From the NCBI GenBank assembly GCA_030043215.1, contig JASHYG010000235.1, positions 1-10,305 of the forward strand: DNA of 10,305 nucleotides, written 5' to 3'. Shown piece after piece: positions 6,491-7,405 of the stretch; the stretch's first letter is position 1, and each line of letters starts with the position of its first letter. The stretch is from Gammaproteobacteria bacterium (lineage in GTDB: Bacteria > Pseudomonadota > Gammaproteobacteria > Steroidobacterales > Steroidobacteraceae). Below the pieces are notes generated by a model that had not been told where the DNA came from, made no database searches, and worked only from the letters and a program-made list of their open reading frames with translations. The translations under genes and the position numbers were made by a program.

Positions 6491-6813
6491 ATGCACCTCT
6501 GGTCGCATCGCCTGCTGAGGCGGCCTGCGGATCGCGGGCCCCTGGCCTCGCGCAGTCTACCTCACCCGCGGACGCGGATCGGCTGGCGCCGGGCCGCTGG
6601 ACATCCGCGGCGCGCGGGCGCATCTTGCGAAGCGGCGGCCGAGGGGCCGCAGCTCAGGAAACTTTTACGAATCAGAAGCTTATCCTTTTGCAAGAAACTG
6701 TGTCGGAGCTCGAGGCAGAGGAGCCATTGTGAGCTGCGGCCGTGCGTGCGAGTATACAAACGCGCACGTGCCGCCAGAGCACGGTCTTGGGGCATTAGGG
6801 GATTCGTAGATAC
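6491..6813. other. 323-bp intergenic region between msrB and the 98-aa gene
   Basis: No credible gene lies here; the open frames crossing it have Arg/Ala-rich compositions typical of shadow frames. A perfect 6-bp hairpin, GCGGCC-GAGG-GGCCGC, lies at 6635-6650. A more AT-rich stretch follows (about 6658-6700). A candidate plus-strand promoter has -10 TATACA at 6753-6758 and a weak -35 TTGTGA at 6728-6733, with a long 19-bp spacer. AGGGGA at 6797-6802 could be the ribosome binding site of the next gene. The msrB promoter should lie near 6491-6560 but is not recognisable. Confidence 0.4.
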
Positions 6814-7110
6814 ATGCAGCTGACACGGCTGTGGCGTGAGCATTTGGCGGCGGGCTGTCCCCGAGAGCTGTCCGGTCTCGAGATCGCGGGAATGGATGCG
6901 CGCGAGCTCGATGCGGAGATCACGGCGTGCGTCAGCGCCCTGCTGACCCATACTCTCAAGGTGGACGGCCGGATCGAGCGGCGCCTCGTCGAGGTCAGCG
7001 CGGATCTCGCGCGCAGGCAATCGAGCTCGGAGCCTCCGGTCGCACAGTACTGCGCGCGTCTCAACCAGCTCGTGAGCGCCGTGCTGACGCAGTCGAAGGT
7101 CGCGAGCTGA
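6814..7110 (+). CDS. Conserved-looking 98-aa protein of unknown function
   Basis: I cannot assign a function. The frame is GC-rich at third codon positions like its neighbours, which supports real coding. The protein is soluble and largely alpha-helical, with no signal peptide or membrane segment. It starts LWREHLAAGCPRELSGLEIAG (split: LWREHLAAGCP, then RELSGLEIAG), continues LDAEITACVSALL and ends YCARLNQLVSAVL. From memory, this HLAAGCP...EIAGID...LDA...GC...YF.RL pattern recurs in small uncharacterised proteins of several phyla, but this was not checked. Cysteines are at residues 15, 40 and 79. AGGGGA lies 11 bp before the ATG, a slightly long spacing. The stop is 11 bp before the operator of the controller gene, so transcripts of this gene could read through into it. 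Confidence 0.68.
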   Translation: MQLTRLWREHLAAGCPRELSGLEIAGMDARELDAEITACVSALLTHTLKVDGRIERRLVEVSADLARRQSSSEPPVAQYCARLNQLVSAVLTQSKVAS

Positions 7111-7121
7111 GCCCCGCTGTC

Positions 7122-7146
7122 GACTATAGCCTGTGGACGAATAGTC
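7122..7146. promoter_or_regulatory. Tandem C-box-like operator of the controller gene
   Basis: The left half-operator is GACTATAGCC (7122-7131), the spacer is TGTG (7132-7135), and the right half-operator is GACGAATAGTC (7136-7146). The two ATAG cores start at 7126 and 7141, 15 bp apart, with GTG seven bases after the first core. From memory, the Esp1396I-type C-protein operator has the same core spacing and the same central GTG, with halves close to GACTTATAGTC and GATTATAGTC. The outer arms GACTAT and ATAGTC also form an inverted repeat across the site. A weak -10 (GAAAAT, 7154-7159) downstream would place transcription initiation near the ATG at 7172. That fits an autoregulated leaderless gene. 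Confidence 0.65.
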
Positions 7147-7171
7147 CCTGGCAGAAAATGATGCTCCCATC

Positions 7172-7405
7172 ATGCCGGCGGATCCCGTTGCTGCGGCCTT
7201 CGGTCGCGTGCTGCGCGAGCAGCGCGAGGCTCGAGGCTTGTCGCAGGAGTTGATGGCGGAGAGAGCCGACGTCGACCGGACGTTCATCAGCCAGATCGAG
7301 CGCGGCATCCGTCGCGCAACGCTCACCACGCTGTACAAGCTCTCCGGCGCGCTGGAAGTGGCGCCGTCGACCCTGGTCGCCCGCGTGGAGCGGCTGCTCA
7401 AGTAG
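7172..7405 (+). CDS. Controller (C-protein)-like XRE-family HTH regulator
   Basis: This 77-residue protein is a single XRE-type helix-turn-helix domain with almost nothing else. Helix 2 is LSQELMAERA (23-32) and the recognition helix is DRTFISQIERG (35-45), followed by TLTTLYKLSGALEV. From memory this closely tracks restriction-modification controller proteins such as C.Esp1396I (DRTYIS.IER, then a TI/TL..L...LEV pattern) in both length and motif. Such proteins bind C-boxes as dimers, activate their own gene and the downstream endonuclease gene at low level, and repress at high level. Here a C-box-like element lies 26 bp before the start. No in-frame alternative ATG exists upstream (a TAG lies at 7142-7144) and no Shine-Dalgarno is visible, which suggests a leaderless message. 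No endonuclease or methylase is adjacent, so its targets are unknown. It could instead be an unrelated autoregulated XRE repressor. Confidence 0.88.
   Translation: MPADPVAAAFGRVLREQREARGLSQELMAERADVDRTFISQIERGIRRATLTTLYKLSGALEVAPSTLVARVERLLK

Follow-up and report, generated by a model that had tools for sequence, protein, structure and literature searches.

A controller protein without adjoining restriction-modification genes, probably maintained as an autogenous switch in a lineage of the Steroidobacteraceae

Controller (C) proteins are the textbook timers of restriction enzymes, and orphan DNA methyltransferases such as Dcm exemplify a restriction-modification (R-M) component that is retained without the rest of its system. 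For C.Esp1396I, specific contacts are described to the GAC/GTC triplets, and the optimal site has a TATA spacer and an outer TG (PMC3758141). The major base-binding residues are R35, T36 and R46, and in the scheme given for this protein OL activates and OR represses (PMC4041747). C.Esp1396I, C.AhdI and C.BclI, the GACTtatAGTC class, are described as acting on two tandem near-palindromic sites around a conserved GT at their own promoters (PMC3758141; PMC4041747; PMC3115060). C-like XRE proteins not associated with R-M have already been reported for the C.Kpn2I clade; many of these regulators lack R-M linkage and have motifs of their own at their genes, the C.Kpn2I motif being described as an outer three-nucleotide inverted repeat with an A/T-rich centre, in or at the start of the ORF (PMC6237814). 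Among the papers listed by our literature search, whose scope did not extend to the survey of Sorokin et al. 2009, no title dealt with orphan members of the GACTtatAGTC class.

Here we describe such a gene in a stretch of 10,305 nucleotides (the window; contig JASHYG010000235.1 of assembly GCA_030043215.1, Steroidobacteraceae), which belongs to a genome assembly that is 63% complete. The locus comprises the following features:

6814 to 7110, plus strand: gene for a 98-aa helical protein, the upstream neighbour; no family match, probably not part of the switch.
7118 to 7119, plus strand: outer TG of OL, a contact as described in PMC3758141.
7122 to 7131, plus strand: left operator OL, GAC-TATA-GCC; predicted stronger site by the contact rules described in PMC3758141.
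7134 to 7139, plus strand: predicted -35 element, TGGACG, conserved and inside the C-box; absent from the output of a generic promoter scan.
7136 to 7146, plus strand: right operator OR, GAC-GAATA-GTC, over the -35 and spacer; predicted weaker site.
7157 to 7162, plus strand: predicted -10 element, AATGAT, 17 bp after the -35, with the ATG 9 nt later.
7172 to 7405, plus strand: gene for the C protein homologue, 77 aa, XRE/HTH_3; residue roles as given in PMC4041747.
7437 to 8405, minus strand: gene like REP-associated tyrosine transposases with a DnaA-C-like end, both matches below the curated cut-offs; it bounds the C transcription unit.

The 77-aa product carries the helix DRTFISQIERG at residues 35-45. 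The initial annotation had likened it to R-M controllers, and C-protein models and structures do rank best in the PADLOC, PDB sequence and PDB fold comparisons. The best PADLOC model is Control_protein (4.2e-15), and the PDB sequence matches are C.BclI (1.1e-11) and C.AhdI (1e-10). For the AlphaFold model (pLDDT 95), fold ranks 1-4 are held by C.BclI and C.AhdI; next come a mycobacterial XRE protein (5woq) and C.Esp1396I, and ClgR ranks not far below. R36, T37 and R47 align with the base-contacting R35, T36 and R46 of C.Esp1396I. The protein thus has the size (about 75-100 aa), the single HTH domain and the fold of the family of C.AhdI, C.BclI and C.Esp1396I, together with its recognition helix and conserved base-contacting residues (PMC3758141; PMC4041747; PMC3115060). 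A generic XRE repressor or antitoxin would fit the Pfam call (HTH_3), the top NCBIfam match, which is the Y4mF antitoxin model below its cut-off, and the closeness in fold of 5woq, ClgR, DdrO and SinR. This identity is nevertheless very unlikely, as C proteins come first in all three comparisons, the operator is a two-site C-box, a toxin-like partner is not adjacent, and only 2 of 50,697 phage records match at E≤1e-7. Since the homologue tree (108 rows) has long branches and few columns, we claim no exact place for the protein among known C proteins.

The 25-bp C-box at 7122-7146 consists of GAC-TATA-GCC, TGTG and GAC-GAATA-GTC, with ATAG cores that begin at 7126 and 7141, 15 bp apart, and a GTG at 7133-7135, exactly the arrangement that had been noted at the outset. 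ATAGNNNGTGNNNNNATAG occurs once in the window and in none of 200 dinucleotide shuffles, and a consensus C-box with an OR one base shorter has no match in the window. The sequence therefore has the two-site C-box at its own promoter that is typical of the C-protein family, with a first OL triplet that varies within the genus. OL possesses the TATA spacer and the outer TG, whereas OR has GAATA and lacks the outer CA; therefore, by the contacts described for C.Esp1396I, OL should be the stronger and OR the weaker site, as in the scheme for that protein. Like C.Esp1396I, C.AhdI and C.BclI, the window gene has tandem near-palindromic sites around a conserved GT (PMC3758141; PMC4041747; PMC3115060). 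Unlike the C.Kpn2I motif as described, its C-box is of the GAC-TATA-GTC kind and lies upstream of the gene, over the predicted promoter.

Among the four genus copies at this position (copy a), 22 of the 25 operator positions are invariant, compared with 17 of the 36 other intergenic positions (Fisher p 0.001); the outer TG and all but one of the six -10 bases are among the invariant flanking positions. Positions 7117-7121, the OL spacer TATA and both OR triplets are the same in all four, and positions 7123 and 7130 vary. The first OL triplet reads GAC, GTC, GGC and GTC in the four genomes, despite being a contact triplet. In a wider set of 37 homologue loci, which leaves out four weaker matches (L003, L011, L012, L018) and two further matches in genome G506, TAT[AG]NNC[CT]GT[GC]GAC stands upstream of the gene in 32. 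Had the element been fortuitous, close homologues might have lacked it, but all 28 loci at ≥61% identity carry it; the five loci without it are 43-49% identical, and one of them (L019) has a degenerate form. The left site has drifted among these 32 loci: its commonest form is GGA-TATA-TCC (9/32), with the core CYGT[GC]GAC maintained, and its right half is TCC in 20, GCC in 6 and GTC, unlike in C.Esp1396I, C.AhdI and C.BclI, in just 4. A different operator layout was seen in genome G565, where several tandem ACTATAG copies lie upstream of a 47% identical homologue (L119, about 6600-6770).

The -35/-10 pair agrees by eye with 8 of 12 consensus bases and is conserved but weak; a generic scan with a threshold of 9 of 12 reported no promoter. 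The distance from the -10 to the ATG is 6-9 nt in all four copy-a genes, and no Shine-Dalgarno is visible at 7150-7171, as the initial annotation had stated in likening the gene to leaderless controller genes. With a predicted leader of about 0-3 nt, the position of the promoter would fit a nearly leaderless mRNA. The same -10 spacing is found in only 16 of the 37 homologue loci. In some relatives (G020 and several other g18 genomes), about 100 nt separate the operator from the start of the coding match, so a leaderless transcript is not a family-wide trait.

By analogy with C.Esp1396I and EcoRV, transcription would be activated at low protein levels by a dimer bound to OL, beside the -35. Binding of a second dimer to OR, which overlaps the -35 and spacer, would then shut it off. 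The outcome would be a self-limiting switch that acts through a nearly leaderless mRNA. Since the next gene downstream is convergent, the operator can drive only the C gene here, and because the gene is monocistronic and no other strong site is visible, the switch would mainly set its own level. The variable first OL contact triplet, the weak promoter match and the sub-threshold antitoxin NCBIfam match are caveats on this interpretation. We consider it probable that an inherited, R-M-free C-protein lineage persists here as an autogenous activator-repressor switch.

The inheritance of the gene is apparent in the genus. All three other genus genomes carry the C gene at the same position, sharing as neighbours DUF1932, msrB, the 98-aa gene, the transposase-like gene, fecI and fecR; two longer contigs additionally hold tolC, rhodanese, pcm and GGDEF/EAL genes. 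The transposase-like gene occupies the same place in all four genomes at 62-66% identity. Such a vertically inherited position, the convergent gene downstream and the absence of an adjoining endonuclease or methylase set the window gene apart from C.Esp1396I, C.AhdI and C.BclI. All four genomes also carry a second C copy (copy b), 67-71% identical to the window protein and located between dihydroorotate dehydrogenase and a divergent 90-aa gene. Its operator and recognition helix are related to those of the window gene, and the two systems may cross-react. Among the seven genes compared across the four species, copy a has the lowest mean pn/ps (0.121), with a small gap to the 98-aa gene (0.132), followed by copy b (0.213), the 90-aa gene (0.260), msrB (0.272; the boundary used for two of its rows takes in one stop), fecR (0.321) and the transposase-like gene (0.435). 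None of the four copy-a orthologues contains a stop codon. Beyond the genus, homologues at E≤1e-13 occur in 30 of 217 family genomes, and in the class 4 of 369 drawn genomes, own genome included, have one. We regard the C gene as a stable, R-M-free chromosomal gene of the genus and of parts of the family, within the C-protein branch of the small XRE regulators.

In agreement with the initial annotation, which had found no methylase or endonuclease flanking the gene, no R-M family was detected among the window genes scanned. Likewise, no R-M genes were seen beside either copy in the four genus genomes, and a Pfam scan of 30 neighbour proteins of relatives, among them an RlmL-type rRNA methyltransferase, gave no R-M family; neighbours in L103-L114 were assigned solely through their similarity to these 30. 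Since it lacks the R-M linkage of the C-protein family, the window gene is filed as an orphan of that family and not as an R-M controller. One of the two fates offered for it at the outset was that of a relic of a lost R-M system. The lack of an adjoining R-M gene would fit such a decaying relic, as would a relative on a Paracoccus plasmid, where the C gene and a type II methylase gene diverge, a C-box-like element is present and a 554-aa gene without PADLOC match follows the C gene; because of this relative, the ancestor may have been R-M-linked. The purifying selection on copy a, its intact reading frame and same position in all four genomes, the conserved operator and the retained second copy disfavour decay, which we regard as a scant possibility. 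What is kept here is the regulator, in contrast to orphan methyltransferases such as Dcm, where it is the enzyme.

The C protein could also control an unlinked R-M system in trans. PF01555 matches are present in all three other genus genomes and a PF00145 match in one of them, and our own assembly is incomplete. These matches lie on contigs other than those of the C genes, though, the own genome (63% complete) has no match to PF01555 or PF00145, and the exact operator core occurs at the two C genes only in each of the four genus genomes, so that control in trans is highly improbable.

The second fate that had been offered was recruitment to time other genes such as the 98-residue neighbour. 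The two genes are adjacent in all four genus genomes and both are strongly conserved, but 11 bp separate the end of the 98-aa gene from the operator, which lies downstream of it on the same strand. A search of 98 genomes located the 98-aa gene in 14, counting the own genome and one with a match no better than E 2.8e-4. It stands beside msrB in nine of ten loci inspected, in several genera; five of these nine have no C gene. In genomes G006 and G020, the 98-aa gene and the C gene are at different loci. Since the gene is upstream of the operator and occurs beside msrB without C elsewhere, it is an unlikely target, and service to this neighbour is the reading to which we give the least weight of all. 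In view of the latter, the C gene probably arrived at this locus beside an older 98-aa gene. The 98-aa protein matches no family, and its predicted structure has no PDB fold match at E≤0.001.

A genome scan for the bipartite motif, proposed with the initial annotation, found no other strong site in the own assembly (63% complete). With the whole C-box pattern at up to three mismatches, the own genome gave one match, the C-box itself, and three for the reversed control. The exact core was scanned in 8 and in 217 genomes and the one-mismatch core in four. Each of the four genus genomes contains two exact copies of TATANNCYGTGGAC, both at C genes. Across the 217 family genomes it occurs 42 times in 36 genomes; 28 of these occurrences immediately precede C genes and are spread over 24 of the 30 genomes that have a homologue at E≤1e-13. 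The exact core is missing in the other six, of which G509, G044, G586 and G613 have a one-base variant, and G471 and G565 have a homologue with neither form. Since the reversed control gives 70 matches in the 217 genomes, the 14 occurrences off C genes are not above chance; one of them (G508) is in a genome that also has a C-linked site. In all 14, the two N positions differ from the gene-linked forms, as seen post hoc, and none of the six inspected (L179-L184) has a C homologue within roughly 3 kb. The one-mismatch core is found at 21 places in four genomes, 8 at C genes and 13 elsewhere, none of which resembles another, compared with 29 for the control; both control totals (70 and 29) are hand counts. 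At the expected locus position, the motif falls inside long open frames in five of six off-gene exact loci and in 8 of the 13 one-mismatch loci. A hidden regulon is disfavoured, as the exact-core, one-mismatch and whole C-box scans showed no further strong targets.

The switch could in addition have been recruited as a host regulator that acts on adjacent host genes in some lineages, or on a regulon via weak or different sites. This is compatible with the autogenous reading and remains tentative, less probable than the switch itself. The gene order in relatives speaks for it. Among 14 inspected loci of g4 and g18, the C gene adjoins or lies close to NYN in seven, together with folE and bipA, and adjoins bipA in the other seven. 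In G483, G509 and G498 (L104-L106), folE (GTP cyclohydrolase I) follows the C gene on the same strand at a distance of about 31-36 bp; in L025, L103, L107 and L109 a GGDEF/EAL gene separates the two. The C gene is divergent from the 90-aa gene in seven loci and from the NYN gene in L104-L106. On the other side, the core scans with or without one mismatch yield no recurrent extra site, the next gene in the window is convergent, and the 90-aa gene occurs without C too. In L104 (6856-7696), L105 and L106, folE occupies the place that the endonuclease gene has in an R-M system. The uncharacterised 90-aa gene (L021 2522-2794, L027 1859-2131, L028 4365-4637, L029 6150-6422; also L025, L107 and L109) is oriented divergently to the C gene at two distinct genomic locations. 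As an obligate partner it was ruled out, since other genomes have it without C.

The persistence of this lineage in the absence of the enzymes, with its operator under selection, suggests how a component of a selfish defence module can turn into a host gene. As an autogenous switch, the C lineage apparently addresses little but itself, and it offers a simple natural system for probing the use of an isolated activator-repressor loop, including the blocking of the acquisition of C-controlled R-M systems. A 2025 review describes cross-complementation among related C proteins and states that incoming C-controlled systems can be excluded by a resident one via premature endonuclease expression (PMC12707154). 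An orphan controller kept as a guard against incoming selfish R-M systems would, in the same way, switch on an arriving endonuclease with a compatible C-box too early, so that the newcomer would fail to establish. If true, mutual exclusion of C-controlled systems would have been made a lasting host trait, and this would explain a selected gene whose sole visible strong target is itself. The operator of most relatives has drifted from the ordinary C-box, however, and cross-reaction should therefore be lower in them; the operator in the window is closer to the ordinary form. We regard a guard function as unlikely, if somewhat less so than decay.

C-like genes also occur on plasmids, with 59 plasmid records showing a match. 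Among the five inspected, the C-like gene is linked to a methylase in one, neighbours a PD-(D/E)XK nuclease gene in another and PRTRC genes in two, and has none of these nearby in the fifth. In the Pseudomonas plasmids of L157 and L159, C-like HTH genes adjoin the PRTRC cluster, and a C-box of the window kind is not visible in the 130 bp upstream. Linkage to defence genes is seen in more distant relatives, on the Paracoccus plasmid and in genome G405 (L122, 1583-7309). In the latter, GACTATAGTCCGTCGAC precedes a C-like gene that diverges from dndC- and dndD-like DNA phosphorothioation genes, which represents a possible C-controlled Dnd system.
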